Notes: generated by a model not told the origin, from the letters alone. Positions 20,028 to 34,875 are shown, counted from the stretch's first letter. The stretch is 44,918 nucleotides of DNA from Bdellovibrionota bacterium (GCA_963170185.1 CAUJGS010000134.1:1-44918), one strand, 5' to 3'. Numbers and translations are program-made.

Positions 20028-22004
20028 TCAAAGACGACCGAAGGGCAAGCCAATGGTCGGGGTCGTGGAGGACCCATTCTTCGCGACCGGAAACTTCATT
20101 CCGCGGAAGACGCCCTTCACGCAATCGAGAAGTCGGTCGCCGTTACGTAATGATGTTTCCTTCACGCTGACGGCCGAGACCGAGCCTTGAGCCGAAATTT
20201 CCCATTCGAACTCTGCCCGACCTGCTAGGTTGGGGTCGTCCATCAGGCTTCGCTCGTAGCACTGTTGGATCTGCGAGTGATGCTTTTGGACGACTTTCAT
20301 GACTTGTTCGCGAGTGAGGCCTTCGGTCTTGGCGATTTCCGTGTAGCTAGCTCCACCAATAACGGAACCAAGCACGTTTCGCTTACCGGTTTTCCCGGAG
20401 AAGCCAGTCGCGCCGTATCCGGACCCTCCGGTTGAGACCTTCAACGCCATGCCGCCGGCAACTCCGGACTCGGATCCACCTTCGACGATTGGGAGATCCT
20501 TCATCAACGCAGAGGTTGATGGTGCTGAAGATCCCGATCCTCCGCCATCCTCATTCGCTGCCGTTCGTCGCACGACAATTCGTTCGGTATTGGCGGTTTG
20601 AGGTGCAGGAGCCGAAAGTAAGGAGAGTGCCTTCAGTGCTCCAACACTCGACGCATTAAATGGACGCGGCGTTGGCGCGAGTGGAGCCTCGGTCTTTGGT
20701 CCAGGAGGTGGAGGATTCGACTTTGCTATGCGTTTGTCTTTCGAATCTGTATCCGCCTTGGGCGCAGCGCCTGCTTCTTCTTTTTTCGCGACCTTCGGAG
20801 GCTGTTTTTTGATCGGCACTTTTTTGTCCACGGGAGGTGGTGTCGCCTTCGCTTGAAGTTTGGGCGTGGGAGCGGGAGTCGGAGTCGCCTTTGCGACGAT
20901 CGGAGTCGGCGTGGGCGGAGGTGTCGGTGTCGGAGTTGCCATGGCAACCGGCGCCGGTGTCGGAGCTGGAGCAGGCATGATAATTTTGGCAACTCGTTCC
21001 GGCGGTGGTTCGTGAACGATCTGCTTGGGCGTGAATGTCAGGTTGGCGACGGCCACGGCTCCGTGGACGAGGCCCGATATGACCATGGGATCTATCAGCT
21101 CTTCCTCGATGAAAGGAACAACACCCGTACGACGATATTTGGATGGTGGTACGTATCGGGCGACGAGACTTAAGCCCCAATCTGCCGTCCAGACAACGGG
21201 AGTTGTCGGCAGCAGAATAGATTCTCGCCCTGGGCGGTTGCTAAACTGAGTTCCGTTTGGACAACGCACTTCCGAACGGTCTTTGCCGACCCGGCCTAGG
21301 CGTAGGAAAATTCCGTTCACCTCGACGATGATATCTTCTCCGGGAAGATATTCTTCGACGATGAGAAGGGCATCATGCCAAAAGACAGAGACCTGCACGG
21401 CGCGTGATTTCGCTTTTTCTGCCAATGGATGCGGCTCACTCATGAGTTCGATGGTGTTCACGTTCAACAGAGGCTTTTTTGCTGTCGATTTGCGGTGAGC
21501 CTGCGCAGCGCCGTCGTGTGAGGGGGCGTGTTGTTGAGGCCGCGGCGCGGACGCTGGTTCGCCGCTAGTATGAAGGCGTTTTCCAGCTGCCTGTTTGGGA
21601 TCTGGCCCGACAAGAGTTTCGTCAGTGGGTGAAATGAAATCGGGCGCCGTTTCACCGTTGTGGGCGTCTTGGTGCTGAGCGGGTTGCAGCTGCCGAATTG
21701 AAATCGTGACTGGTTTGAGATCAAAGCTTCCGCCGTCTGCGATCTCGGCCGAGCGCACCTGTTCCCCAGCGACTTTCACGCCATTCATACTCTTGAGATC
21801 ATTTAAGATCCATTTTCCTGAATTGAAGCGAAGTTCGCAGTGATGACGAGAGACGCTGTCGAACGGGAGAACGATATCGTTCTCGAGAATTCGACCGATT
21901 CGAATTGGAGAATGCTGGAACGTCTGTACCATCAATGGTCGACCATCTCTCATGATCGATATTTCAACGGGTATTTCTAAAACGTCCATTCCACTGCGGT
22001 TCAT
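20028..22004 (-). CDS. FHA - TM - proline-rich - AgmX/PglI C-terminal domain protein (GltG/GltJ-like)
   Basis: This is a 658-residue bitopic protein. A cytoplasmic FHA domain (about 13-105) keeps the phosphothreonine-binding residues Gly-Arg 37-38, SRHH 52-55 and SMNG 72-75. A second cytoplasmic beta region (about 195-290) is followed by one transmembrane segment (about 304-325). A long periplasmic Pro/Thr/Ala/Lys-rich linker (333-470) leads to a C-terminal TonB-like AgmX/PglI domain (about 563-655), recognised by REQVMKVVQKHHSQIQQCYER and a paired cysteine. This layout is that of GltG/GltJ, which couple the AglRQS motor to periplasmic and outer-membrane parts. It overlaps the upstream small gene by four bases (ATGA). 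Confidence 0.85.
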   Translation of the reverse strand: MNRSGMDVLEIPVEISIMRDGRPLMVQTFQHSPIRIGRILENDIVLPFDSVSRHHCELRFNSGKWILNDLKSMNGVKVAGEQVRSAEIADGGSFDLKPVTISIRQLQPAQHQDAHNGETAPDFISPTDETLVGPDPKQAAGKRLHTSGEPASAPRPQQHAPSHDGAAQAHRKSTAKKPLLNVNTIELMSEPHPLAEKAKSRAVQVSVFWHDALLIVEEYLPGEDIIVEVNGIFLRLGRVGKDRSEVRCPNGTQFSNRPGRESILLPTTPVVWTADWGLSLVARYVPPSKYRRTGVVPFIEEELIDPMVISGLVHGAVAVANLTFTPKQIVHEPPPERVAKIIMPAPAPTPAPVAMATPTPTPPPTPTPIVAKATPTPAPTPKLQAKATPPPVDKKVPIKKQPPKVAKKEEAGAAPKADTDSKDKRIAKSNPPPPGPKTEAPLAPTPRPFNASSVGALKALSLLSAPAPQTANTERIVVRRTAANEDGGGSGSSAPSTSALMKDLPIVEGGSESGVAGGMALKVSTGGSGYGATGFSGKTGKRNVLGSVIGGASYTEIAKTEGLTREQVMKVVQKHHSQIQQCYERSLMDDPNLAGRAEFEWEISAQGSVSAVSVKETSLRNGDRLLDCVKGVFRGMKFPVAKNGSSTTPTIGLPFGRL

Positions 22005-22255
22005 TTGGATTCAACCTCTTCTAGAGATTCAGCCGCAGGTAATCGTACGTCGATGCCGTCGATGATTTCGGGACGGAAGTTCTTGCGGTACTTCACGCGG
22101 TCTTGCACGCGAGTCGCCTCGCGTGAAGACATGCGCATGCGATTGTCATTTAGAAGTTCACCTTTGACAGACATGTCCTCAAGGTCCACACGCGCTTGCG
22201 CCGAGGCGTCGACGGAAAAAACGAAAGTTAGCAATGCCGCGATTAGAAATCTCAC
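22001..22255 (-). CDS. Small secreted protein heading the AglRQS-like operon
   Basis: This is an 84-residue product if translation starts at GTG 22255. The N-terminus is then a textbook signal peptide (VRFLIAALLTFVFSVDASAQA). The mature 63 residues are charged and lack cysteines (DLEDMSVKGELLND, then REATRVQDRVKYRKNFRPEIIDGIDV). There is no Shine-Dalgarno sequence. Instead a TACAAT hexamer lies seven bases upstream of the GTG, so leaderless initiation is possible. A longer frame upstream to 22366 looks non-coding. The stop overlaps the FHA gene start (ATGA). I do not recognise the family. Confidence 0.65.
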   Translation of the reverse strand: MRFLIAALLTFVFSVDASAQARVDLEDMSVKGELLNDNRMRMSSREATRVQDRVKYRKNFRPEIIDGIDVRLPAAESLEEVESK

Positions 22256-22571
22256 CTGAAAAATTGTACCCGAACTGAGACAGTTGTGATGTCTCAGTTT
22301 GAGATTCTGTCCGGTCGTTCCGGAAACAATTTTTGATCGAGCGTTTTCCAACTGCAGTCCCCCCATTTCTCAATCGGCAACTTCAGCTAGCGACATGAGA
22401 CGAGCGAGGTCCTGTCGAAACTCTTGACAAGTGATAAGCGAATTACGGCTATCTCCAATGAGAGGCCTTTCTAGGTGGAATCAATCTTGATCTAAGAGTG
22501 GCGTGGGGTCTTGGAATTTGATTCAGAATTTCGATGAGAGATTCCGATAAGAGAAGAGACGTGGGGGCATC
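22256..22571. other. Divergent control region between the AglRQS-like operon and the vWA lipoprotein
   Basis: This 316-bp gap has no supported gene. It holds a 10-bp dyad (22273-22299) next to the minus-strand start and an isolated perfect TTGACA at 22424-22429 facing the vWA gene. No good -10 element follows the TTGACA at 16-18 bp, so that promoter is doubtful. Confidence 0.5.
22273..22299. promoter_or_regulatory. Perfect 10-bp dyad, candidate operator or leader hairpin
   Basis: AACTGAGACA (22273-22282) and TGTCTCAGTT (22290-22299) are exact inverted repeats around a 7-bp spacer. The dyad lies 17 bases upstream of the GTG at 22255 and just upstream of a TACAAT hexamer on the same strand, which would place it across a -35/-10 spacer. 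Alternatively it could fold in RNA. No ligand or regulator is identifiable. Confidence 0.55.
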
Positions 22572-24239
22572 GTGTTTCGTGTTTCTGAAAACCTAAGGAA
22601 AAGCCTTCTGGCGGGCCTTGGCGCGTTTGGTATCGTATTAGGCTTTCAGAACTGCGATCAGTCTCGTTTGCTACTTGTAAATGAGTTGGCCTCGGCGAAG
22701 TCTGACGGAGAAATTTGCGCGATTGAACCATCTGCGCAAGACGTCTACACGAAAGTCATGTTCGTGGTGGATAAGTCAGGTTCAAACGGCACAACAGATC
22801 CGGGTGCGACTTACCGGGCTGGAACTATTGGGTCGTTTTACAATCTTCATGCTGCCAACCAGTTTACAAAGTGGGGCTTGATCACCTTTCAAGATGGTGG
22901 AGCGACTCCCGCGATCTTGGATGCGACGGGAACTGTCGGTGGATTTACTAACGACATGGCGACGGTGAACGCGGCGATTGGAACGATAGCAGACGGAAAT
23001 GCCGGAGCGACACCTTATCAAGCGGCAATTGCCGCGACCAGTGCGGCAATTACTCGCGACGTAGCGGCGAATCCCGGCGAACGAAGCATGTATGTGGTCG
23101 TTTTCATATCGGATGGTGCACCTCAGCCGGCAGTTACGGATCAGGTGTTGGAGTCGGATCTTCGCTCGCTTTTGGCGCTGGGGGATGTGACCTTTAATAC
23201 GGTTTATTATGGCCCACCCAACGACGAGACTTCGAGTCGAATGCTCCGCATGGCCAACTGGGGCCGTGGAAAGTTTCTTGATACCAATATTTCAGGACGT
23301 ATTCCGCTGGATAGTCTGATTGGATTTAGAACGGGGCAGCCGTGGTTAATCAAGAACCTTACTGTAACTAACCTGAATGCCGCCCCTTGTGACGATGGGA
23401 CGGTAGATGCGGATTCCGATGCCGATGGACTGTGCGACAAGGATGAAGTTCGCTACAACACAGAATTTCTATCTGATCCACAGAAGGTCGCTAGGATGGA
23501 AGGCAAGACTTTCAATCCAACGAATCGCAACAGCTTTGATCCGTATCTGAGCGACGCCGTATTTTATAAGCATATCGTGTTTGCCGAAGGTGTTCCTCGG
23601 GACTGCACGGCGGCTGATCTCATAGATGAGGATCGCGACTTAGCAAACCGCTGCGAGGAGAGATACCTATATTCTTCGTCGCCTTCCGGTCCAACTGAGA
23701 AATGGACTTCGGCTATGCAGCGAGATGCGGATCCTCTGAACTTTGATAGTGATGGAGACGGTTATCTCGACTTTTTTGAGTTCATGATGACGCGCAATCG
23801 TTCGTCTGGAATGGATCGCAACAACGTCAGTCAGCTTTTTCTGGGATATCGTCTGGACACGATTTTCAATAAACACCTGAACTGGCGAAACCCGCTGGCG
23901 TCTCCGGCCTATGACGGTATGTTTCAGTTCAAGCGTGTGAATGAGAGTGGGCAGAACTGCTACTCCTACAATCAAACGGTGTTACCGCTCTATGCGGTTC
24001 GACCAGTTTCGGTTGGCCAGGTCAGTGGAAATTCAAACCTTGTTCATGGTCAGAACGAAAACGTGGTGATGATTTCGTTTATTCAAACCCCAGAACAAGA
24101 TCCAAACGGAGCCGGGGAATTGCGATACACGTTTCAGCGCATCTCTGCTTCGTCGAATCACATTAAGCTCAATTTGAGAATTGAAGAGTATCAGTCGTAT
24201 CGAGTGCCGCTGGATGCTCGAGTGAATCAAGGGCCTTGA
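22572..24239 (+). CDS. vWA-domain lipoprotein with calcium-loop repeats (candidate CglB-like adhesin)
   Basis: This is a 555-residue predicted lipoprotein. The hydrophobic N-terminus ends in GFQNC (Cys28), an atypical but plausible lipobox. A von Willebrand A domain spans about residues 58-260. Its MIDAS motif is DKSGS (67-71) and a second metal-site aspartate lies in FISDGAP (Asp181). Two EF-hand or thrombospondin-type calcium loops follow: DADSDADGLCDKDE (279-292) and FDSDGDGYLDFFE (391-403). Seven of its eight cysteines are in the mature region after the lipid-anchored Cys28. GTG 22572 is the start, with a G-rich region just upstream. It diverges from the AglRQS-like operon, and Myxococcus uses the vWA lipoprotein CglB as its Glt-linked adhesin; equivalence is inferred. 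Confidence 0.85.
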   Translation: MFRVSENLRKSLLAGLGAFGIVLGFQNCDQSRLLLVNELASAKSDGEICAIEPSAQDVYTKVMFVVDKSGSNGTTDPGATYRAGTIGSFYNLHAANQFTKWGLITFQDGGATPAILDATGTVGGFTNDMATVNAAIGTIADGNAGATPYQAAIAATSAAITRDVAANPGERSMYVVVFISDGAPQPAVTDQVLESDLRSLLALGDVTFNTVYYGPPNDETSSRMLRMANWGRGKFLDTNISGRIPLDSLIGFRTGQPWLIKNLTVTNLNAAPCDDGTVDADSDADGLCDKDEVRYNTEFLSDPQKVARMEGKTFNPTNRNSFDPYLSDAVFYKHIVFAEGVPRDCTAADLIDEDRDLANRCEERYLYSSSPSGPTEKWTSAMQRDADPLNFDSDGDGYLDFFEFMMTRNRSSGMDRNNVSQLFLGYRLDTIFNKHLNWRNPLASPAYDGMFQFKRVNESGQNCYSYNQTVLPLYAVRPVSVGQVSGNSNLVHGQNENVVMISFIQTPEQDPNGAGELRYTFQRISASSNHIKLNLRIEEYQSYRVPLDARVNQGP

Positions 24240-24264
24240 AGCACCAAGGCCAGATTATATCCCA

Positions 24265-24675
24265 TCACTTCTTTTCGATACTGAAGGCGACCTTCTTGAC
24301 CCCAGCGGTTTTGATAATGTCGATGATCGCCGTCAGTGTTTCTAGCGTGACGGTCTTGTCGGCCTGCAGAATCGCGGCCGTGTCAGGCTTATCGGCGACG
24401 GCTTGAGCCGCAGTTGCCGCAAGCTGGTCCATGGTGGCGGTCTGTCCGTTGATCGCAAGCTGGCCATCTCGCCCGATGGCGATATTAAGAGGGGCTGGAG
24501 GTGATTCTTCGCCCGAGGACGCTTTCGGCAGATTCACATCAATCACTGGCTTGAGGACCAAGGGTGCTGTCACCATGAAAATGATGAGAACCACAAGAAT
24601 GATATCGACAAGCGGGACGATATTAATCGCCGCTATCGGTTCTTCGTCTTGTTGATTCTGAAATCCGCCGGCCAC
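24265..24675 (-). CDS. exbD: ExbD/TolR-family biopolymer transport protein
   Basis: This is a 136-residue protein with a short acidic cytoplasmic N-terminus and a membrane helix INIVPLVDIILVVLIIFMV containing the conserved aspartate (about residue 24). The periplasmic domain has the usual DGQLAINGQT and VTLETLTAIIDIIKTAGVKKVAF elements. It starts at GTG 24675, the base directly after the stop codon of exbB, so the two are translationally coupled. It is shorter and more canonical than the two ExbD proteins at 18293-19329. It converges with the vWA lipoprotein gene. Confidence 0.93.
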   Translation of the reverse strand: MAGGFQNQQDEEPIAAINIVPLVDIILVVLIIFMVTAPLVLKPVIDVNLPKASSGEESPPAPLNIAIGRDGQLAINGQTATMDQLAATAAQAVADKPDTAAILQADKTVTLETLTAIIDIIKTAGVKKVAFSIEKK

Positions 24676-25320
24676 TTAGTTCCCTTTCGCTTTCAGACTA
24701 TGGGACTTGGCGTAGGCCACGCAGAGTTCGCGAACCGAATCGATGCTTTGCATGATGCCGCGGACTTGTTTCTGAAACGCGTTGTAGGCGATGACGGCTG
24801 GAATCGCGACGATCAAACCGACAGCCGTTGCGACCAGTGCTTCCGCAATACCGGACATGACGGCCTCGTTGCCAGCCGAGGCATTGGCCGCGAGATCACG
24901 AAACGCTTTCATGATACCGAGAACTGTTCCAAGAAGCCCAACAAATGGCGCGTTCGAGCCAACAGTTGCAAGGAAGTTGAGTGAGCGTTCCAGCTGAGGG
25001 CGTTCCAGCAAAGCAAACGAATGAAAGATTTCGCTGAGTCCTTCGGTGCCGTTTTCACGAACGTGTCGCAGTCCGTAGGAAAGGGCTCGCCCCTCGAGAG
25101 AGTCGCGATCTTTGGAGAGATCTTCGAGATCCGAGAGGTTGTAGCTTTGAAGGGCTTCTCGCATCCGCGCGCGGTTCTTAGTGGTACGACTCACTACCGA
25201 CTTAAGTGCGATCCAGCGCTCGAGAATGAGGCCGACGCTGATGACACTGATGACCAAGAGCAGCCAAAGAATGGTCTCTGCTCCACCTTGCGCGATATTG
25301 AATAAACGTTCTGTTAGCAT
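24676..25320 (-). CDS. exbB: ExbB/TolQ-family proton channel protein
   Basis: This is a 214-residue protein with three membrane helices: an N-terminal one (TILWLLLVISVISVGLILERW), then LNFLATVGSNAPFVGLLGTVLGIMKAF and GIAEALVATAVGLIVAIPAVIAYNAF. The family signatures GLLGTVLGIM and ATAVGLIVAIPA are intact. It forms a pair with exbD directly downstream. No TonB or TolA gene follows; the nearest candidate partner with a TonB-like C-terminus is the AgmX-domain protein at 20028-22004. The start ATG 25320 is 52 nt from the divergent sulfatase-fold gene. Confidence 0.94.
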   Translation of the reverse strand: MLTERLFNIAQGGAETILWLLLVISVISVGLILERWIALKSVVSRTTKNRARMREALQSYNLSDLEDLSKDRDSLEGRALSYGLRHVRENGTEGLSEIFHSFALLERPQLERSLNFLATVGSNAPFVGLLGTVLGIMKAFRDLAANASAGNEAVMSGIAEALVATAVGLIVAIPAVIAYNAFQKQVRGIMQSIDSVRELCVAYAKSHSLKAKGN

Positions 25321-25372
25321 AAACGCAATTATTTCTAGGGGGCTCAGGGCAGGTCAAGGTAACATTGCTTGC

Positions 25373-27295
25373 ATGCGGTGTCCCGACCTCTATCTGCCCA
25401 ACTTCCATCTGGCTCTCATTTGGCTGTTCGCCGTTGTTCTTCTCGGCCAAACGGGTTGCACGTCGCGCGCACCGACTAGACCTTCCTATCTCATTGTCGC
25501 CGTGGATCGTTTGGGTGTCGGTTTCAATGTTTGTCCGTCTGAGTCTGATGACGCGACTGGTTCCGGATTTGGTGAAATCTGTCGTGAGGGGGTGCGGTTC
25601 ACTCATGCATTCACGACATCGACGCTGTCGGCGCCCGCGATGGGTTCGATTCTCACGGGTCACTATCCGTACCGAAGTGGACTGCGACACAATGGACGGG
25701 GCGAGTTAGGAACCCTCTCCGCCTCGGTCGAAACACTGGCCGAAACCGCACTTCAAAAAGGTTATCGGACTCTCTTTGTTTCAGGCGGCGCTCCGCTACT
25801 GCGCCGTACGGGTTTGCACCAGGGGTTTGAGGTTTTCGACGACAATATCCGACCTGGCCCGCGTCGCATGCATCGGCCGGCTCGCGAGGTGGTTGAAACT
25901 TTTCAGCGCTGGTTAGAGGGGCGCTTGCGTTTGGACGATCGTTCGAGGAACCGCACGGTTTCGGATCCGTATCTTGCGGTTCTACACTTGGCGGACTTGC
26001 AGGTTCCGTGGAGCCCGGCGCCTGATGAATCGGGTCGCACCAGAGAGAGCACCGTGCGCGCGCAGCTTGAAGAGATCGACGAAACTCTTGGTCGTCTTTG
26101 GGCTTACTTGCGTCGCAACCGTTTATGGGATTCTACCGTGATCGTCGTCGTGGGTCTTCAGGGCGAGGCCTCTGATACGAGGTTGGACGAGATTCCGGCT
26201 TTGGACCTTCATTCGGATATGACCCATGTCACGTTATTGGTTAAAGATGCCGTGAGTCCGGTAAAGCCGGGCCGCGCGACGGATCTGCCGACGGGACAAA
26301 CTGACTACAAATGGGCACCGAAGTCGTCATCGTTTGATGTGAATGTCAGCCTGGCGGATTTGGGTGTTACCCTTTTCGAACGAATTTCTCCGCGAAGCTT
26401 GCGAATGTTTGAAGGTGAAGAAGTGCGTTCTTTGGCGGACGCGCTGAAAGGACCCGGAGAACATCTCGAAGAGTGGAGACGTTCGGATCGCGCGATCTTA
26501 AGTGAGTCGGCATGGGCGCGGTGGCAGTTGGACTCGTCTCTTCCGATACGGGTGGCGATTCGCAAAGGTCCCTACTTGTACATTCACGACGGTGCGAAGT
26601 CGTCTTCGAGCCTCTACAACACGCTGACGGACGCTTTCGAGGTGTCGCCGTTGCCTCGGCGAAATGCGAGGACTATTGAATTGAAGTCAGAGTTTTCGGA
26701 ATTTGCGTCTTCGCTCGGTTATCAGGAATTCCCCGGTGTGAGTGCGCAGCAGCTCTTGGAAGAGCGCTGGGCACGGGCTTTTTTTTCGATACGCTTGGGG
26801 ATTCGAGCTGGCGAAGGTGCTCCGCATATCAACGAAACGGACCAGCAGCGAATCGAAATTTCGGGAGAGCAAAGTGCTCACGCGAGAACCTGGTTGACGC
26901 TGCAGAAGTGGGAGTCCGGGATCGAGGATCCGGCTCCTAACGTTTGCAGTCAGTTTGTTTTTGGAGCAAATCAGGCTGCAATGATGAGTGCGGGATTTGA
27001 GGTCGAGCTGCTGCGCGTTTGTCCGTTTCGAGGCGCCAAGGAGATCGCGAGATGGCTAAGGCTGCCAGAGGGTGTCGAGCGAGCCAGGGCATTGGATCAG
27101 ATCGTGCGTTTTGACCAACAGCGCTTAACAGGTGTTCGTGTCGCCGAGGCGTCGCATGCTTTGGGCCGAGTTTGGGAAACAGGAATGTCTCGACGGCGTG
27201 AACTAGAAGGGTTGGAGGTCTTACTTGCGCAACCTGAGGCAGGCCGATTGCGCAGTCAGCTCATGCGACGTCTAAGGAGCCAACCCGAGCCTTGA
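25373..27295 (+). CDS. Sulfatase-fold lipoprotein with degenerate active site
   Basis: This is a 640-residue product from ATG 25373, with a signal ending in LLGQTGC (lipidated Cys29). The alkaline-phosphatase/sulfatase fold is recognisable in order: SYLIVAVDRLG (normally an Asp-Asp metal site; only Asp45 remains), STLSAPAMGSILTGHYPYRSGL (normally Cys/Ser-x-Pro-x-Arg; here Ser86-Ala-Pro-Ala-Met90), LADLQVPWSP (normally a His before Pro-Tyr), and STVIVVVGLQGEASD (normally Asp-His/Asn-Gly). Most metal and formylglycine-site residues are therefore replaced. The last 200 residues are a separate helical region. Loss of catalysis and use as a binding or structural lipoprotein is my inference. The 3' end overlaps the convergent radical SAM gene by 35 nt. 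Confidence 0.8.
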   Translation: MRCPDLYLPNFHLALIWLFAVVLLGQTGCTSRAPTRPSYLIVAVDRLGVGFNVCPSESDDATGSGFGEICREGVRFTHAFTTSTLSAPAMGSILTGHYPYRSGLRHNGRGELGTLSASVETLAETALQKGYRTLFVSGGAPLLRRTGLHQGFEVFDDNIRPGPRRMHRPAREVVETFQRWLEGRLRLDDRSRNRTVSDPYLAVLHLADLQVPWSPAPDESGRTRESTVRAQLEEIDETLGRLWAYLRRNRLWDSTVIVVVGLQGEASDTRLDEIPALDLHSDMTHVTLLVKDAVSPVKPGRATDLPTGQTDYKWAPKSSSFDVNVSLADLGVTLFERISPRSLRMFEGEEVRSLADALKGPGEHLEEWRRSDRAILSESAWARWQLDSSLPIRVAIRKGPYLYIHDGAKSSSSLYNTLTDAFEVSPLPRRNARTIELKSEFSEFASSLGYQEFPGVSAQQLLEERWARAFFSIRLGIRAGEGAPHINETDQQRIEISGEQSAHARTWLTLQKWESGIEDPAPNVCSQFVFGANQAAMMSAGFEVELLRVCPFRGAKEIARWLRLPEGVERARALDQIVRFDQQRLTGVRVAEASHALGRVWETGMSRRRELEGLEVLLAQPEAGRLRSQLMRRLRSQPEP

Positions 27296-28043
27296 TTTTC
27301 AATCGACGATCCAGCCAGTGGCTCAGTCGATGAAGATCTTCTTCAGTCGCGGCTTCGAGACCGCTGACAGGTTGTGAAGGGTCGCGAAACGGCGCCTGTC
27401 CAAGTGTTAGAACAACTTCATTGGGCTTAAGCATCGCGATGACTTCGAGCCATTCATCCAACCGAGCAGGGGGTTCAAGCGAGGCATCGCCGGACAAGAC
27501 AGTCGTTTGGATTGAAAGGTTCTTCAGGGACTTGGCGCCATGAATGATTTTTTCAAGAGATGTTCGAGTGCGGGGGCGATTGAACTGTTTGAACGCCCGT
27601 TCGCCGCCGTAGTCGAGCTTCAGGTAAGTTTGGTCAAGCTTGTTGAGAGCGCTAACTGTGGCGTTGTCCGAAAGCCCTTCACCGTTTGTGAAGCACACGA
27701 TACGAAGCTGACTTGCCATCAGCTCGTTTCGTTTTTGCAGTAGCGCCGATACCAGTGCCGAGAAGTCGGGGAAAAGTGTTGGTTCGCCGTTTCCGGAAAT
27801 AGCCAAAGTCTCAAATTCGTTTCCGGGCTCTCGCATCGAGCTGCCTAGGATCCTACCGAATTCCGCGACCAGTTCCGTTTGTTCTGGAAAGCCACCGTAC
27901 TTTTTTAAGTCACTCAGCTTTATGGTGGACGGACCGAGATTGCAGTACGCGCAGTCGAAGTTGCAGATTTTTTCGGTCCCTAGGGGATTGAGTTCCAAGT
28001 AGCGACCTAAGAACTCGTGTTCACGGAAATTAAACGCCTTCAC
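27261..28043 (-). CDS. Radical SAM protein
   Basis: This is a 260-residue enzyme with the radical SAM cluster motif CNFDCAYC (Cys27, Cys31, Cys34) and the downstream glycine-rich SAM-binding GNGEPTLFPDF. The general layout resembles the COG0731-type (wyosine-related, single-domain) group, but I cannot assign a substrate. It begins at GTG 28043, overlapping the upstream stop by four bases (GTGA) with GGAG 7 nt upstream. It is the last gene of the tadC-FHA operon. Its coding end overlaps the sulfatase-fold gene on the opposite strand. Confidence 0.85.
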   Translation of the reverse strand: MKAFNFREHEFLGRYLELNPLGTEKICNFDCAYCNLGPSTIKLSDLKKYGGFPEQTELVAEFGRILGSSMREPGNEFETLAISGNGEPTLFPDFSALVSALLQKRNELMASQLRIVCFTNGEGLSDNATVSALNKLDQTYLKLDYGGERAFKQFNRPRTRTSLEKIIHGAKSLKNLSIQTTVLSGDASLEPPARLDEWLEVIAMLKPNEVVLTLGQAPFRDPSQPVSGLEAATEEDLHRLSHWLDRRLKIKARVGSLDVA

Positions 28044-28789
28044 GCAACATCTCCGCTGATGTTGGTGTTGGTGAGTTGAGTTTCCATAGCAGAAGCTTCG
28101 ATCTCGAGTAGGCCAAGCCAGAAAGCGGAGCGTGGGCTATGTTTGGCTAGCTGACGAACCATTTCATCCATCTTCAGCTGATCGGCTTTCCAGCTAAACG
28201 CGATCTCAGGAGTTTGTGAGTGATTGATCAGTAACAGCCGATCACCAGCGCGAGCGCGGAAACTATTGATGGTGAGGTTCACATTTGCATCAAGTCCCAG
28301 AAGCTGTGCGGGCAATGCCGGCAGCTCGTGTTTCGAACGCCAGTCGCGCAAGTCGAGCGCAAGGTCGATGTTGGCGCCGAGAGGAAGAAGGGATTGAGCA
28401 CCACGGCCGAGAAGAAGCTGCGGTCCCCCGACTTGGAGCCAAGAAAGCTCATTTTGGTAGAGCGTGGCCGCAAAGAGTTCGACGCCTGCTCGATACTCCT
28501 CGCGATTGTCTTCGCGGAAAATCATGTCGTTTGCCAAGAGCGCGGCTGTTCGGAGGTTGTTTGCGGCCGTCGAAAGGCAAGTCAGGCGAGGCAGTGGAGA
28601 CGTGGCTTCGCGATCTTGTGCCGCAAACGCCAGGTACTCGGTCATTCGGTCGATGACCTTCTTGGCGGCTTCGCGATTCCCCCAAGGCACGACGACGAAG
28701 ACGGAGTTCGTCGTCTCGTCGACGTGGATCTCGGGCGTGGGTCTCGAATTTTCGCCTGGATAAGGACGGTTTTGAAAACGTAACTTCAT
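28040..28789 (-). CDS. PP2C-fold pseudophosphatase-like protein
   Basis: This is a 249-residue protein whose segments line up in order with PP2C serine/threonine phosphatases, although every metal-binding motif is lost. SVFVVVPWGNREAAKKVIDRM (from 29) stands where VVADGMGGH-type sequence is expected, so Asp-Gly becomes Pro-Trp. YRAGVELFAATLYQNELSWLQVGGP matches the GTTLV-to-VGDS strand pair with Gly-Gly-Pro (121-123) for Gly-Asp-Ser. AGDRLLLINHSQTP (181-194) matches GDRLLLCSDGL with Asn-His for Ser-Asp. Alignment is by eye. The neighbours carry four FHA domains, so a phosphoprotein-binding role is attractive. It overlaps both neighbours by four bases. Confidence 0.6.
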   Translation of the reverse strand: MKLRFQNRPYPGENSRPTPEIHVDETTNSVFVVVPWGNREAAKKVIDRMTEYLAFAAQDREATSPLPRLTCLSTAANNLRTAALLANDMIFREDNREEYRAGVELFAATLYQNELSWLQVGGPQLLLGRGAQSLLPLGANIDLALDLRDWRSKHELPALPAQLLGLDANVNLTINSFRARAGDRLLLINHSQTPEIAFSWKADQLKMDEMVRQLAKHSPRSAFWLGLLEIEASAMETQLTNTNISGDVA

Positions 28790-30879
28790 GGCGACTGATC
28801 CGAGTAGTTCTTCAGTTTGATTTTCGATTTCAGGAAGTACTCGCCGTCGGTGGTGTCACGATCAATAATCTGACGCCACTTCGTCTGTGCTTCCTGAACC
28901 CGACCGACACCTTCGTAGAGAATCGCATCTTCGTAGATCGTACGCAGTTGTGCGTTAAGTTCTCGGCGAACTTTGCCAATGTACTCGGCTGCTTTTTCGC
29001 TTTTCGGGTCGAATTCTTTGGCGCGTTTGGCCGCTTCAATCGCCTCTTTATAGTTCTTCGATTGATAGGCGGCCTCGGCCGATGCGAGATACTCATCGAC
29101 ACGGTCTGAAATCATTTTTCGTATCTGCACGATGGAAGATTGCGAACGGGCTTTCAGACCATTGGGATCTGGAAAGTCAGAGGCAATGTGTTTACCGTAT
29201 GCATCGATGGCGGCATACCAGTCGGACTTCGCACGAAGTCCCTCGGCTCGTTCGAACATCGCACGACCACGACCCACGCGGTCTGAGTAGTCACGTTGCG
29301 AGGCCAGTTTTTGATCGCGCGCTAAAACGCGGCGCTCGACACGGCCAATGAGGTCCGCCACCAGGGGGTTCGTCGGGTCTAGCCCGATGGTCGGCGCGAG
29401 ACACTGGCGAATCTGTTCAACGTTCATGCTGGTGTCGGCAAGTCCGTTGCACTCGCGAATATTCCGATCGATCATGCGCTTTTGTTCTTCGACGCGTTTT
29501 CGTTCTTGCTCGACAAAAGCAAGCTGTTCGGCCGCCGCTCGTTGGGCCAAGCAGTCTTCTTCCATCGCCTTGGAGCCTTCGTAACCCTCGGGGATAATCT
29601 CGTGCAGTTTTTTTAGCTGCTCGTGAGCGTTTTCGAACTTTCCCTGCATGTAGAGGTTTCTAGCTGTTACGTAGATCTCTTTCACGAGTTGTCGCTGTTG
29701 AGGCGAGAGGCGGCTCATGGCATCGACTTTGTCATTCACCGACGGCGCTTTTTTGGAGTCTCCGCTGTCCGAACCGAACAGGGCATAAAGTCCGCCGACG
29801 ACGATCACGAGGATCAAGGCCAAGCGCATTGTGTTTGGCTTCTTTTTGTCTCCGCGTCCCTGATCATAGCCATGATCCATGCGGACCGCGCCACCACCAC
29901 CGGCACCCGCGGGTACCGGATAGTTGATGATTTCAAAACGCGGCATGGGGACCATGGCCGGTGCAGCCATGATCTCTTGTGGGATCGAGACCAAACGCTT
30001 TTCGAAATTTGGATCGCGAATTTCAAAGTAAAGCAAAAGCGAATTGACCGAAATCACGTCGCCACTTTGAAGTGGGCGAGGGTCTTCCGGAATCAGAGGG
30101 TCACCGTTGAGAACAGTTCCATTGGAACTGCCCATGTCGGTAATAAAGTAGCCCTCTGGAGTCGATGTGATTTCAAACTGGCGACGGCTGGCCTTGCGAT
30201 CGGGAAGAAAGATATCGCAGCTATCTTCGCGGCCTGCCAGCCATTTTTTTCCATCTAGTTCGATGCGTGATTCCACGCCGTCGGCTTTCACGATGCGAAT
30301 AAAAGGACGCGCGGGTAAGACAATCCCGACGTTCGTGGCTTCTTCGTTACCTTCAAACTGAGCGGGCGCAAACCCCTGGGGCATTGGCGATGTCGCGGCT
30401 GTTCCGGCGGCTCCGTTTGGTCCCGATGGCACCAGAGAGAGGGTTGCTGGTGGCCGCATGGCTGGCGCTTGCGCCGGATCGACCATGGCCTCTGTCGGTT
30501 GTCCAAGATGTTCCGCACCGGCGGCCATTGCGATGTCATGCGCGTCGCCGGCGGCCGTAGGTTGAGAGACGACTTGAGAACGTTCGTCGGTTTCCAAGAA
30601 ACGGAAATCGTACCCGGCAAGTTTGAAGACCGCGCCGTGCGTGAGCTCCACAAGCGGCACCGGCTGGCCGCCGTGGATAACCTCGCCGAATTTCGAAATA
30701 ACACTTGCGACCCACTGGCCAGATTCGTCGGAAACGCGGAAGTGTTGGCGAGAAATACCAGGTTGCTCGTCTAACTGAACGGCGCTTCCCTCTGCTCGGC
30801 CCAAAATGTATTCACGCCCAGGCTCGAGCCTCAGCGAAGACACTTCTTTTCCGTGTAGAAACACCTTTAACGTAGCCAT
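28786..30879 (-). CDS. Double FHA domain - TM - TPR protein
   Basis: This is a 697-residue bitopic protein. FHA domain 1 (about 4-96) has Gly-Arg 27-28 and SRQH 43-46, but the usual Ser-x-Asn-Gly is Ser-Lys-Phe-Gly. After a Pro/Ala-rich spacer, FHA domain 2 (about 192-288) has Gly-Arg 216-217, SRRQ 231-234 and an intact SSNGT 251-255. A Gly-rich stretch precedes one transmembrane helix (about 351-369). The 320-residue C-terminal part is helical with TPR-like units (ARNLYMQGKFENAHEQLKKL; AAYQSKNYKEAIEAAKRAKEFDPKS). The FHA domains are expected in the cytoplasm and the TPR part in the periplasm. The gene starts 9 nt after the single-FHA gene and overlaps the pseudophosphatase. Confidence 0.88.
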   Translation of the reverse strand: MATLKVFLHGKEVSSLRLEPGREYILGRAEGSAVQLDEQPGISRQHFRVSDESGQWVASVISKFGEVIHGGQPVPLVELTHGAVFKLAGYDFRFLETDERSQVVSQPTAAGDAHDIAMAAGAEHLGQPTEAMVDPAQAPAMRPPATLSLVPSGPNGAAGTAATSPMPQGFAPAQFEGNEEATNVGIVLPARPFIRIVKADGVESRIELDGKKWLAGREDSCDIFLPDRKASRRQFEITSTPEGYFITDMGSSNGTVLNGDPLIPEDPRPLQSGDVISVNSLLLYFEIRDPNFEKRLVSIPQEIMAAPAMVPMPRFEIINYPVPAGAGGGGAVRMDHGYDQGRGDKKKPNTMRLALILVIVVGGLYALFGSDSGDSKKAPSVNDKVDAMSRLSPQQRQLVKEIYVTARNLYMQGKFENAHEQLKKLHEIIPEGYEGSKAMEEDCLAQRAAAEQLAFVEQERKRVEEQKRMIDRNIRECNGLADTSMNVEQIRQCLAPTIGLDPTNPLVADLIGRVERRVLARDQKLASQRDYSDRVGRGRAMFERAEGLRAKSDWYAAIDAYGKHIASDFPDPNGLKARSQSSIVQIRKMISDRVDEYLASAEAAYQSKNYKEAIEAAKRAKEFDPKSEKAAEYIGKVRRELNAQLRTIYEDAILYEGVGRVQEAQTKWRQIIDRDTTDGEYFLKSKIKLKNYSDQSP

Positions 30880-30888
30880 ACTTTTAGA

Positions 30889-31896
30889 TCATCGTTCCTG
30901 GAGTAAATCGCATTCCTTTTTAATTTTTTCCGCTTCCTTAAATTTCAAATCATCTTTGTTCGTCATCAACACAAGGGCCTTTTCAATCGCGGCTGAACAC
31001 CGCGTGTACATGGCCTTTTCACGGTATCGACGTCCTTCGAGCAGAAGGTTAGTGATCGCTTCATCCTTCTGCTTCTGGGCTAGACGATAGTACCTCCTAG
31101 CCAAGACGTTTTCTGGATCTAGGCCTATGGCCGTTTCGAAAGCGCCTATGGCCCGCGGGTAGTTGCCCTTTTGATAATCGCGAAATCCACGAAGGTAGTG
31201 CTTCTGCGCTTCTTCGTATCGAGTCTTTTCTTCTTCTGTTCGAAACTGTCGCTTCTTTGCGATCGCATCGACGCGCGCCTCTGTTTCGGAGATCTCCTTT
31301 TCAATTTCCGATGTCGTGCGTAGGCCCGCGTCCAATTTCTTGGCCTTCTCTTCGCCAGAGCCGATGATGATAATGCCGCCGAGAACCAAAGCGACGATCA
31401 GATAGAGTGGGCCTCTGCCGCCTTTTTTCTGCGTTTTTCGGTTGGCCGGTTGCGCACCGCTATCAAAGCCTCCGCTTGGCGCGCCGGCAGGAGGAGCGCC
31501 GAAGCCGCCATTGCCAGGCAGTGCGGGGGCAAGTCCTCCGCCTTGAACGGGTGTGGCGGGAAGTTGCAAAGCTTCCACGATGAATACGAGTTCAGATTCT
31601 CCGATCTGAAGTACGTCGCCGCCCTTGATGGAGTGGCGATCGCCGGGGACACCGTTGACCGAGAGTTTTGATTTTCCACTGATGTCGAGTGCGACGATCT
31701 GCTCGGGAGTGAACTCGATCACCACCGCATTGCGGCTCACCCGTGGATCGTTGACCACGACATTGTTGGACGCAGGATCTCGGCCGATCGAAACGCGCGG
31801 AGGCAAAAGCTGATACGTCGCACCGGCCGCCGGGCCGCTGCGAACATTTATCACAAACTTGAATCCCGTCCTAGGGAGGGGGGCTACCGCACGCAC
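30889..31896 (-). CDS. FHA - TM - TPR protein
   Basis: This is a 335-residue protein starting at GTG 31896, with GGAGGAGG upstream that overlaps the end of the previous gene. The FHA domain (about 11-108) has Gly-Arg 38-39 but VSRNAVV where Ser-Arg-x-His is normal, so the conserved histidine is Ala. A Gly/Pro/Ala linker (110-160) leads to one transmembrane helix (163-180) and a charged coiled-coil segment (about 185-225). The C-terminal TPR pair (YEEAQKHYLRGFRDYQKGNYPRAIGAFETAIGLDPEN) extends to the end. The architecture is a shorter version of the double-FHA protein encoded next, which suggests an ancient duplication. Confidence 0.87.
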   Translation of the reverse strand: MRAVAPLPRTGFKFVINVRSGPAAGATYQLLPPRVSIGRDPASNNVVVNDPRVSRNAVVIEFTPEQIVALDISGKSKLSVNGVPGDRHSIKGGDVLQIGESELVFIVEALQLPATPVQGGGLAPALPGNGGFGAPPAGAPSGGFDSGAQPANRKTQKKGGRGPLYLIVALVLGGIIIIGSGEEKAKKLDAGLRTTSEIEKEISETEARVDAIAKKRQFRTEEEKTRYEEAQKHYLRGFRDYQKGNYPRAIGAFETAIGLDPENVLARRYYRLAQKQKDEAITNLLLEGRRYREKAMYTRCSAAIEKALVLMTNKDDLKFKEAEKIKKECDLLQER

Positions 31897-31902
31897 GTTG
31901 GC

Positions 31903-33594
31903 TTATCCTCCTCCGCTTAAAGTGATGAGATACCAAGAGGCCTCACCCGAGTTTCCGACGATGGCCTGTCCATTGATTTCGTATTTCAGACCCGAGAATG
32001 GAATCTCGCTAAAGGCGATATTGCCTAGCTGATCGCGCATGCGGGGAATGAGGTCCGCGAGGTTCGCTTGCAGGGCTGGGTCTGGAATTTCTAGCACAGG
32101 TCGCCCTGTGAGCTGAAGGCCTGAGCCGACCAAGGCATCGAAGGCGGAGTTCGTTGTGATGATACGGTTGTCGACCGCATTGATGCTGATTGCAGGAATG
32201 GGCAACATACGCACCACATTGGTCGCTTCGATATCGCGATTCAGTACGGCGTTGGGCGATTGATATCCACCGCCGCCTCCATGTGCCGCGCGGCTGAGCG
32301 CCGAGTTGACGTTGCTCACGAGCTTTTCTAGCAATGGCCATTGGTAGACAGTCGAGAGATCGTCTCGCCCTTCGCGAAGGGCATCGTCGAGTTGAAGTCC
32401 CAGGGTGGAAATCGGGTGCTCGACAACACGAACGAGGAAGAAGAAGAGCACGCCCCCGATAACGGCAGCCAAGAAAAAGATCTGAAGGAAAAGACCGAGA
32501 GTCTGCGCGGAATTCATCGCCTGAGCGCCCATGTCGTAGATAACGACAGCATAGGCGGCCGCCTCTTGTTGGCCAGCTTCTGGATTGTAGCGCGCGATAG
32601 GAACGGCCACACCGAGATTCGAATCGCCGATGAAGCCCTCTGTTTCACGCTCCTCGCGCCGTGCTTGATTCACGAACGGCAGCTTCGCGAACTCTCCACG
32701 CTTGTTGGCTGGCGCGAGAATTGTTCCGTCTTTGGCCATGATGATGGCGTTGGTGACGCCTTCTTCAAGTTCAGCGTGACGAACCGTGGCGGCGATTTCG
32801 TTTTTCTCCAAGATCGCTTGGCGGTTGATGAGTGCGAGGTTACGCGCGATCGTTTTGGCTCGGCGAACGCTTTCTTGGCGAATGCTTTTCTTGGTCAAGG
32901 TCACCATGGGAACGGTCGCGACGACCGTGACCATCACGACGTAGATCGCGATGAACATCATCAAGCTTTGGCGGTAAGACATCTTTTGAACGACTGCGTA
33001 GATGCCGGGCATGGCGACGTGATCGATGTAGATGCGGATGTTTTCAAAGAAGTCGAGAACCGCGTTGCCGGTGTATTGAGCTTGCGGTTTTTCCACTTCT
33101 TCGCGTAGAGCACCTGGGTCCGGCATGTGCTGCGAAGCATGCTCGTGCATGTGTTGGAAGTCTTGTGGGTGTCCGGAGGGCTGAGCGTATTGAGGTTGCA
33201 TCGCAACCGCAGCATTGCCGGCCCAAGACGGCATCGGCAGTCCGCCGCCGGGGGATGCTCCTGGCACAAACCGCGGATCGAAACCTGGCGGAAGTTCGAG
33301 GATGTCGATCACGACGTCATGGAATGTCAGTTTGTCTCCGGCCGCGAGTTTTTGGTTTTGTACCCGCAGACCGTTCACGAACGTTCCGTTTCGTGAGTTC
33401 ATGTCGGTGATTAGAACCTTGCCGTCTTCTGTCAGCAAAATAGTGGCGTGTTCTTTTGAAACGGAGTTGGAGGCGAGCTTGATCTGACAGGATGGGCTGC
33501 GGCCAATGATATTGTAACCGGCAGCAAGCGGGATGATCTGTCCTGACTGTGGGCCAGTGAGAATGCGCACCGCCCATGTGGCCTTATAGCCCAT
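31903..33594 (-). CDS. FHA - TM - periplasmic sensor - TM - PAS protein
   Basis: This is a 563-residue membrane protein. The N-terminal FHA domain (about 8-98) is canonical: Gly-Arg 31-32, SKEH 46-49, SRNGT 67-71. A Pro/His-rich linker leads to the first membrane helix (about 210-232), a periplasmic region of about 130 residues that looks like a PDC/CHASE-style sensor (IIMAKDGTILAPANK), the second helix (365-389) and a HAMP-like connector. A C-terminal PAS domain (about 462-555; LPIPAISINAVDNRIITTNSAFDALVG) ends the protein. There is no kinase, cyclase or GGDEF output. It reads as a signalling scaffold that senses the periplasm. The start overlaps DUF192 by 11 nt. Confidence 0.87.
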   Translation of the reverse strand: MGYKATWAVRILTGPQSGQIIPLAAGYNIIGRSPSCQIKLASNSVSKEHATILLTEDGKVLITDMNSRNGTFVNGLRVQNQKLAAGDKLTFHDVVIDILELPPGFDPRFVPGASPGGGLPMPSWAGNAAVAMQPQYAQPSGHPQDFQHMHEHASQHMPDPGALREEVEKPQAQYTGNAVLDFFENIRIYIDHVAMPGIYAVVQKMSYRQSLMMFIAIYVVMVTVVATVPMVTLTKKSIRQESVRRAKTIARNLALINRQAILEKNEIAATVRHAELEEGVTNAIIMAKDGTILAPANKRGEFAKLPFVNQARREERETEGFIGDSNLGVAVPIARYNPEAGQQEAAAYAVVIYDMGAQAMNSAQTLGLFLQIFFLAAVIGGVLFFFLVRVVEHPISTLGLQLDDALREGRDDLSTVYQWPLLEKLVSNVNSALSRAAHGGGGGYQSPNAVLNRDIEATNVVRMLPIPAISINAVDNRIITTNSAFDALVGSGLQLTGRPVLEIPDPALQANLADLIPRMRDQLGNIAFSEIPFSGLKYEINGQAIVGNSGEASWYLITLSGGG

Positions 33595-33973
33595 CGGTGC
33601 CTCCTACGGGTTCCATATCCCGAACAAGAAGCTGTTCGCCGACTCGAACGCCGCCCAGTTTTTCAAGGGTACCGGCCGGAAGCTCAAAGACGCTCGAGGC
33701 TTTCAGATGAAGACGGGTGATTCGCCACGGTTTCAAAGTATGGTAGATCGAAATGACTTTGAGATCATCGTCGACAAAGACCGCGTCGATAGGAAATTTC
33801 ATAAACACCGTGTGAATGGAATTACAGCGCTTGATCCAAAGGCCTTCGCCTTCTGGAAGGCTTGTCCTGCCAAGTAAACCCTTGGTTCGTGTCAGCAGGG
33901 TGTCGGCGATGCGAAGATCGCTTGCGAGGTCCACGTTGGACTCGGCCGGTTGCAGCTTGAGGCGGATGTTCAA
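33584..33973 (-). CDS. DUF192 family protein
   Basis: This is a 129-residue protein if translation starts at TTG 33973, which overlaps the tadC stop as TTGA and has GGGGGTGG upstream. The frame continues further but only as an antisense shadow of tadC. The domain is recognised by TRTKGLLGRTSLPEGEGLWI, CNSIHTVFMKFPIDAVFVD and VFELPAGTLEKLGGVRVG. DUF192 proteins are small beta-barrel-like proteins of unknown biochemical function; they often lie near Tad/Flp pilus or secretion genes. No signal peptide is evident. Confidence 0.88.
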   Translation of the reverse strand: MNIRLKLQPAESNVDLASDLRIADTLLTRTKGLLGRTSLPEGEGLWIKRCNSIHTVFMKFPIDAVFVDDDLKVISIYHTLKPWRITRLHLKASSVFELPAGTLEKLGGVRVGEQLLVRDMEPVGGTDGL

Positions 33974-34875
33974 TTGCCACCCCCGTAAATAAACTGAAGC
34001 GCGATCGGCGCAAAGACCATGATGAAAACCGCTGGCAAGATGAAGAGGACAAGTGGGATCAGTATCTTCTGCGAAGCCTGCGCACCGGCTTTCTCCGCGC
34101 GAACAAAACGCTCGAGTCGCATCTGCGCGGATTGATCTTTCAAAACCTTGGCGATACTGACGCCGGTTGCGTCCGAGTCGATGACGACGTTCACAAGTGA
34201 GTTGACCTCGTTGATATCGCAACGAGCCTTGAGCCCAGTCAGGGCGTCGGCACGCGAACTACCAAGCGTGATATCGCGAAGAACCTGATTGAACTCGTCG
34301 GCAAGAACGCTGTCTTTGCTCGCCTTCTCGACTATCGCTTGAATGGCGCCTTGGAAGTCTTTGCCGGCTTCCACGGCGAGAGCCAGCAGATCCACATAGA
34401 AAGGGAGTTCGCTGAGGATCGCGGTTTGTCGTGTTTGGCGCATTTTGTTGGCGTGCATGGTGGGCATCTGCCATCCCAGAAGTCCCATGAAAAGAAACAC
34501 AGGAATCGGGAAGTTGAATTGCAAAGCGAAGTTCAAGACCAAGCCGAGGATCGGCATGACCACGCCCCAAAGTAGCTTGAGCCCAAGAAACTCGTCGATG
34601 TTGAGTTCGGCGGTGAGGCCGGATGTGATCAGTTGTCGCTCGATTCGCTGGCGCATTTTTTTATCCTTTATGCGCACGGCGTACTGAATCGTGAACTGGT
34701 GAACCAGTGGACGAGAGAACTCGATCAGAGGAGATTGGGATTTTGCTGGCGCGCTTCCTGAGGCCCACGACAAGGCGTTCGCACCTTCGTCTTTTGCCAT
34801 AAGCGCAGAGACAAAGAAGTACACCGCGATGCCCGTTACCAGGATCAGCACCATTGGTAGTAATTCACTTCCCAT
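33970..34875 (-). CDS. tadC: TadC-like type II secretion F-family membrane protein
   Basis: This is a 301-residue inner-membrane platform protein of the Tad/Flp (GspF-like) family. ATG 34875 has AAGGTG upstream; an earlier ATG at 34905 would overlap the divergent maf start. The N-terminal helix (4-25), central helices (about 95-135) and C-terminal helix pair (about 270-296) flank a cytoplasmic T2SF domain, with SELPFYVDLLALAVEAGKDFQGAIQ typical of TadC. In Tad systems TadB and TadC form the membrane base below the ATPase TadA. Neither TadA, TadB nor a pilin is next to it here. It is the first gene of the FHA operon. Confidence 0.87.
   Translation of the reverse strand: MGSELLPMVLILVTGIAVYFFVSALMAKDEGANALSWASGSAPAKSQSPLIEFSRPLVHQFTIQYAVRIKDKKMRQRIERQLITSGLTAELNIDEFLGLKLLWGVVMPILGLVLNFALQFNFPIPVFLFMGLLGWQMPTMHANKMRQTRQTAILSELPFYVDLLALAVEAGKDFQGAIQAIVEKASKDSVLADEFNQVLRDITLGSSRADALTGLKARCDINEVNSLVNVVIDSDATGVSIAKVLKDQSAQMRLERFVRAEKAGAQASQKILIPLVLFILPAVFIMVFAPIALQFIYGGGN

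Follow-up and report, generated by a model that had tools for sequence, protein, structure and literature searches.

The TadC-FHA operon of a Bdellovibrionales genome is very probably the detached half of a split Kil-type Tad system and encodes a predicted inactive relative of PP2C phosphatases

The role of the FHA proteins found around prey-killing Tad pili is open; the authors who described the Kil system suggested a T6SS-like signalling cascade and reported homologs in Bdellovibrionales (PMC8460266). In B. bacteriovorus HD100, the bd0470::tn mutant (TadC) fails both to attach to prey and to kill it, whereas the bd0474::tn mutant attaches without killing or rounding the prey; both were complemented (PMC6561027). 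Bd0474 interacts with Bd0075 in a two-hybrid assay, and a contact between Bd0473 and Bd0475 has been modelled (PMC12034629). The TAD locus of HD100, bd0109-0119, accounts for TadA, TadB, RcpA and RcpC (PMC5430801), and tadC (bd0470) has been classed among the type IVb genes and is regulated with other pilus genes (PMC3818213). In Agrobacterium, the T6SS is activated when Fha binds the phosphothreonine of TssL (PMC3953482).

The locus studied here lies in a stretch of 44,918 nucleotides (the window), which is contig C134 of a draft Bdellovibrionales genome. A check of the open reading frames and their junctions bore out an earlier note on this DNA, which had described seven coupled minus-strand genes, from tadC to a radical SAM gene, at 27261-34875 (Table 1). 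The tadC stop and the DUF192 start share a TTGA (33970-33973), the DUF192 gene overlaps the gene for the 563-aa FHA protein by 11 nt (33584-33594), gaps of 6 and 9 nt flank the FHA-TPR gene (335 aa), and the 2xFHA/PP2C-like and PP2C-like/radical SAM junctions are ATGA and GTGA overlaps, respectively. Pfam and hydropathy also agree with the claim of three membrane FHA proteins with four FHA domains, two of which are in the 697-aa protein. By hydropathy, the 697-aa and 335-aa proteins have one transmembrane (TM) segment each, which separates the FHA from the TPR part, and the 563-aa protein has two. Judging from the charges around the TM segments, the FHA domains would be on the cytoplasmic side, which matches the published model of Bd0474 (PMC12034629). 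The additional modules that had been proposed fared less well. TPR repeats scored over the Pfam cut-off in the 697-aa protein but below it in the 335-aa protein, and a Pfam search of the 563-aa protein recovered no PAS domain. No signal for a FliA-type promoter was seen upstream of tadC, where the mean best motif score was 8.3, against 8.2 in shuffles.

Table 1. Genes of the operon in the window, in order of transcription.
Feature	Coordinates	Strand	Evidence and counterpart
TadC inner-membrane platform protein	33970..34875	-	Pfam T2SSF 6.9e-13; Bd0470 counterpart
DUF192 protein, TTG start	33584..33973	-	Pfam DUF192 1.9e-19; Bd0471 counterpart by position
FHA - TM - periplasmic region - TM - cytoplasmic C-terminal region, 563 aa	31903..33594	-	FHA 1.2e-18; Bd0472 counterpart by position
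FHA - TM - TPR, 335 aa	30889..31896	-	FHA 2.7e-7, TPR_2 below cut-off; Bd0473 counterpart by position
FHA - FHA - TM - TPR, 697 aa	28786..30879	-	two FHA stretches, TPR_2 over cut-off; Bd0474 counterpart
Predicted pseudo-PP2C, 249 aa	28040..28789	-	profile and hhalign; Bd0475 counterpart by position
Radical SAM protein, CX3CX2C motif	27261..28043	-	Pfam Radical_SAM 2.4e-7; optional operon member

We compared 40 loci from 40 genomes of the order, using as queries the window genes and the tad genes of a second contig, C89. The order TadC-DUF192-FHA-FHA/TPR-2xFHA-PP2C-like was kept in every sufficiently long locus; six loci (L029, L034, L035, L039, L046 and L049) are truncated by contig ends within the gene set or just where it stops. 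With an order this constant across the Bdellovibrionales loci, the six-gene arrangement is not a matter of chance, and it is not the peculiarity of one strain that the earlier note had named as telling against its reading. The radical SAM gene, present in only 13 of 41 order loci, is therefore outside the conserved core; thus, the suggested co-conservation of seven families holds for six. All seven genes are present in L007, from a Bdellovibrionales MAG. The DUF192 slot is constant across the loci of the order and of the phylum. The divergent neighbours of the operon in the order are Maf/YggS-ProC-DivIVA, and the opposite flank carries, in most order loci, a sulfatase-like gene and ExbB/ExbD. 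In the window, the sulfatase/phosphodiesterase-like gene (25181-27295) is convergent with the operon, a position conserved in most order loci. A fourth FHA gene (658 aa) and the ExbB/ExbD genes lie farther downstream (20028-25320), and the ExbB/ExbD pair stays beside the operon in most loci of the order.

A TadC of the window type was found in 57 of 60 order genomes, and some match in 59, two of which (G011 and G016) have a TadB-type match only; G009, which is 57% complete, gave no TadC match. True loss of the operon was considered for G016 and set aside: ProC of the window also gave nothing there, in a search run without a positive control, and a draft gap is therefore likelier than loss.

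The operon is the counterpart of Bd0470-Bd0475 of HD100, an orthology assessed by residues for Bd0474 and by gene order for the other genes. The 2xFHA protein of locus L048, from a relative in the order, is 674 aa long, the published length of Bd0474, and it matches Bd0474 at 12 of 12 published residues. The earlier note did not know this set as a described system. That can no longer be maintained, since the counterpart Bd0470-Bd0475 has already been tied to predation (PMC6561027; PMC12034629) and an FHA-rich Tad machine has been described as Kil (PMC8460266).

The window gave no match to the other tad families that served as queries, and no other tad gene adjoins the operon in the Bdellovibrionales loci. 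Contig C89, on the other hand, has a tad locus with TadV, pseudopilins, CpaB, the CpaC secretin, a TadZ-TadA fusion, TadB and then an RHS-type gene, but no TadC. These names rest on sequence and position (locus L008), except for the fusion and the RHS gene, which were named by Pfam; TadV, CpaB/RcpC and CpaC are conserved in relatives. In the fusion, a 739-aa protein (L008:8010-10229), TadZ (ParA-type) is joined to TadA; it matches T2SSE (1.6e-59) and TIGR03819 (1.5e-93, which is below that model's own cut-off), and its N-terminus is a ParA/CbiA domain, with no FHA domain. Whole or in pieces, the fusion occurs in almost every one of the 60 order genomes; six drafts in all have it fragmented or, in the case of G005, not convincingly present. 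The only other short T2SSF protein of the genome is TadB on C89, and the remaining T2SSF proteins are two-domain proteins of about 411-413 aa. A TadA-type ATPase (the fusion) and two platform proteins (TadB on C89 and TadC in the window) are thus present. In most order genomes, a second, weak TadC match adjoins the TadZ-TadA gene. Among the single-contig genomes compared, match coordinates place the FHA/TadC locus between about 145 kb (G047) and 755 kb (G020, if circular) from the tad locus. As a separate observation, the RHS/YD-repeat gene that follows TadB (L008:11133-12851) is also found in most sister-class tad clusters; by its position, it may be the counterpart of Bd0109 (hit locus) of HD100.

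That the tad partners are at a distant locus explains why TadC looks alone, and the idea of a lone TadC needs to be amended: no tad gene adjoins it in the order, but TadB and TadA partners are encoded at the remote tad locus. A different view is that TadC and its neighbours form a membrane signalling complex of their own, independent of any pilus. The isolation of the operon from other tad genes in Bdellovibrionales is what such a complex would predict. Against it, the remote TadA/TadB have no other TadC to work with than that of the window, and tadC of HD100 shares its regulation with other pilus genes (PMC3818213). The arrangement in the sister classes of the phylum argues further against independence. 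We examined 38 loci of genomes that do not belong to the class and two, L121 and L122, from inside it; 4 of the 38 reach a contig end, which leaves 34 informative. With linkage counted from gene lists, and with loci drawn from the high-scoring part of the list rather than at random, the operon is directly upstream of tad genes in 24 of the 34, usually CpaB, CpaC, TadZ-TadA and TadB (in L115 the ATPase match is partial only). It is unlinked to tad genes in the other 10, seven of which are family f18, and inside the class no locus has the operon contiguous with tad genes. On this synteny we reject a stand-alone system, which we consider very improbable.

Because the operon is contiguous with tad genes in the sister classes, the window holds half of one split Tad system; linkage is plausibly the ancestral state. 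The earlier note had also named a complete tad locus in related genomes, with these genes as ordinary accessory parts, as an outcome at odds with its reading. The first part of this holds in the sister classes, where tad genes directly follow the operon in 24 of the 34 informative loci. The accessory role does not fit, as the FHA genes are conserved as widely as the Tad core, the 2xFHA family (697-aa protein) being found in 287 of 291 phylum genomes. With associated FHA-domain proteins (four FHA domains) and contiguity of operon and tad genes in sister classes, the operon resembles Kil, although an N-terminal FHA domain on the ATPase was not found in the C89 fusion. We conclude that the operon is very probably the detached half of one split Kil-type Tad system, the other half of which is on C89. 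The TadC of the window would pair with the TadB of C89, and the operon would be the platform-and-signalling half of a single Tad machine.

The last gene of the conserved core codes, as far as its sequence tells, for a true relative of PP2C phosphatases. The window protein alone has no Pfam match. However, the PDB chains matched by a 41-member profile were without exception those of PP2C (tPphA; E about 2e-4), and hhalign of this profile with the active PP2Cs of the order gave 166 columns at E 4.4e-4, against 0.06-0.89 for 14 unrelated control profiles. AlphaFold2, run on two sequences only (window and L007), gave a pLDDT of 37, too low to be of use. For the catalytic positions we use the numbering of tPphA, in which these Asp residues are metal ligands and D119 is the ligand of the third metal. 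No Asp is found at the positions of D34, D119 and D193 in 41 of 41 Bdellovibrionales copies, loss being scored at these three positions since D231 is not confidently aligned. At the level of sequence, this agrees with the earlier description of a PP2C-fold protein without a metal site.

In the sister classes, 6 of 10 slot proteins tested scored over the Pfam PP2C or PP2C_2 cut-off and one more over that of SpoIIE, while 3 of 10 were below the cut-off or had no match. Among 36 such proteins, D34 is kept in 34, D193 in 16 and D231 in 15; all three are kept in 14, and D119 in none. As D119 is absent throughout, the proteins of the sister classes, too, may have little or no phosphatase activity. 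The slot thus appears to be that of a phosphatase that decayed to a predicted inactive copy in Bdellovibrionales, which is the new detail of this analysis; in the openly accessible literature we found no paper that names a PP2C in the operon. One PP2C_2 protein is encoded elsewhere in the genome. Bd0075 had been considered as the counterpart of a 960-aa gene beside an active PP2C, and was dropped when that gene turned out to be a transketolase relative.

The phosphothreonine-binding residues of the FHA domains, as predicted from alignments, are largely invariant while the PP2C slot decays. In the 563-aa protein, G31, R32, S46, H49, N69 and G70 are invariant in 38 of 38 copies, and in FHA2 of the 697-aa protein R217 is kept in 39 of 41, S231 in 40 of 41 and N253 in 39 of 41. 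FHA1 of the same protein has R28, S43 and H46 in 41 of 41 copies but lacks the usual loop Asn. In the FHA-TPR protein, S54 and R55 are found in 40 of 40 copies, R39 in every one of the 38 rows that have a residue at this position, and the loop Asn in 22 of 40. Since this Asn is missing in FHA1 and often absent from the FHA-TPR protein, some of the FHA domains may not bind phosphate.

It could be argued that phosphorylation plays no part at all. The FHA proteins and the pseudo-PP2C would then serve only as a scaffold for the inner-membrane complex of the Tad machine, and the FHA folds would mediate contacts between proteins, as they do in the type III secretion ring of YscD/SctD. Yop-YscD_cpl is a further Pfam match of each of the three FHA proteins, FHA1 lacks the loop Asn, the phosphatase has decayed in Bdellovibrionales, and a motif search of the loci found no linked kinase, all of which a scaffold would accommodate. 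It would account less readily for a full binding set that does not vary among the copies of the 563-aa protein, for a near-invariant one in FHA2, or for a slot PP2C with three catalytic Asp residues in 14 of the 36 sister-class loci. We therefore regard a purely structural role as a serious alternative, at odds somewhat short of even.

A regular expression for kinase motifs, not a profile, found none in the scanned order and phylum loci (about 6 to 20 kb) or in the 44.9-kb window, and the scored PP2C Asp residues are absent from 41 of 41 order copies, in line with the statement that the operon encodes neither a kinase nor an active phosphatase. Four kinases over the Pfam cut-off are encoded elsewhere in the genome. 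In another genome (G004), a Ser/Thr kinase gene and an active PP2C gene are within 7 kb of each other (L147:3037-9785), about 30 kb from the FHA operon on one contig; they form a candidate pair for an FHA switch.

An FHA operon with a PP2C relative that decays in one lineage, where the FHA residues persist, gives the signalling idea a concrete form. We propose that the inner membrane anchors all three FHA proteins, whose FHA domains face the cytoplasm; two of the proteins would extend TPR arms into the periplasm, and the third would have a periplasmic region. In line with the suggestion of the Kil authors, they would most likely read phosphothreonine on cytoplasmic parts of the Tad machine, set there by a kinase encoded elsewhere, and this reading would couple prey contact to the assembly or firing of the pilus. 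The original product of the PP2C slot was probably a phosphatase that removed these marks again, and in Bdellovibrionales the pseudo-PP2C probably serves the FHA proteins as a structural partner or a decoy. Phosphothreonine binding in the cell, the kinase, gating by contact and the role of the pseudo-PP2C are what we infer from these patterns. Whether the inner-membrane platform of the Tad machine carries a phosphothreonine switch that is read by FHA domains, comparable to the Fha pathway of the T6SS, seems to us an evenly balanced question. Of the phosphoprotein scaffold on a Tad platform that the earlier note had envisaged, the FHA-rich membrane module tied to a Tad-type platform stands; the notion of a system of its own does not. 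As a whole, the best explanation is the half of a Kil-type Tad system with phosphothreonine-reading FHA proteins and a pseudo-PP2C, to which we give a probability of roughly 0.6. It is a more tentative thought, and on balance a somewhat doubtful one, that the Tad pili of Bdellovibrionota have a built-in phosphothreonine switch of membrane FHA readers and a dedicated PP2C within the tad cluster, and that in Bdellovibrionia the module broke away, its phosphatase became a pseudophosphatase and an FHA/pseudo-PP2C reader now gates the attack on prey.

The threonine-phosphorylation pathway of the T6SS (PpkA, PppA and Fha) likewise has FHA readers and a gene of the PP2C family encoded together with an envelope machine that works by contact; here, however, the operon has no kinase, the PP2C is inactive in the order by its sequence, and the machine is a Tad pilus. 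In the operon of HD100, as in the window, TadC comes first, FHA proteins are in the middle, and the 2xFHA-TPR protein Bd0474 is followed by a 228-aa hypothetical protein, with YggS-ProC-DivIVA nearby by HD100 numbering (PMC7186360). The window differs in its additional, optional radical SAM gene, and the PP2C relationship of Bd0475 is not named in the accessible papers. With Kil of Myxococcus xanthus (MXAN_3102-3108, MXAN_4648-4661), the system shares a Tad machine in two loci and many FHA proteins. Kil is needed for contact-dependent killing (PMC8460266); among the counterparts of the present genes this is known for Bd0470 and Bd0474 of HD100 (PMC6561027). In Kil, a single cluster encodes the two platform proteins, and the ATPase, KilF, begins with an FHA domain, whereas in the present genome TadC and TadB are encoded at separate loci and the N-terminal domain of the ATPase is of the ParA/TadZ type. 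A predation-linked Tad/FHA module was thus already known; the decaying PP2C slot is the new detail, and the split accounts for the solitary look of TadC.
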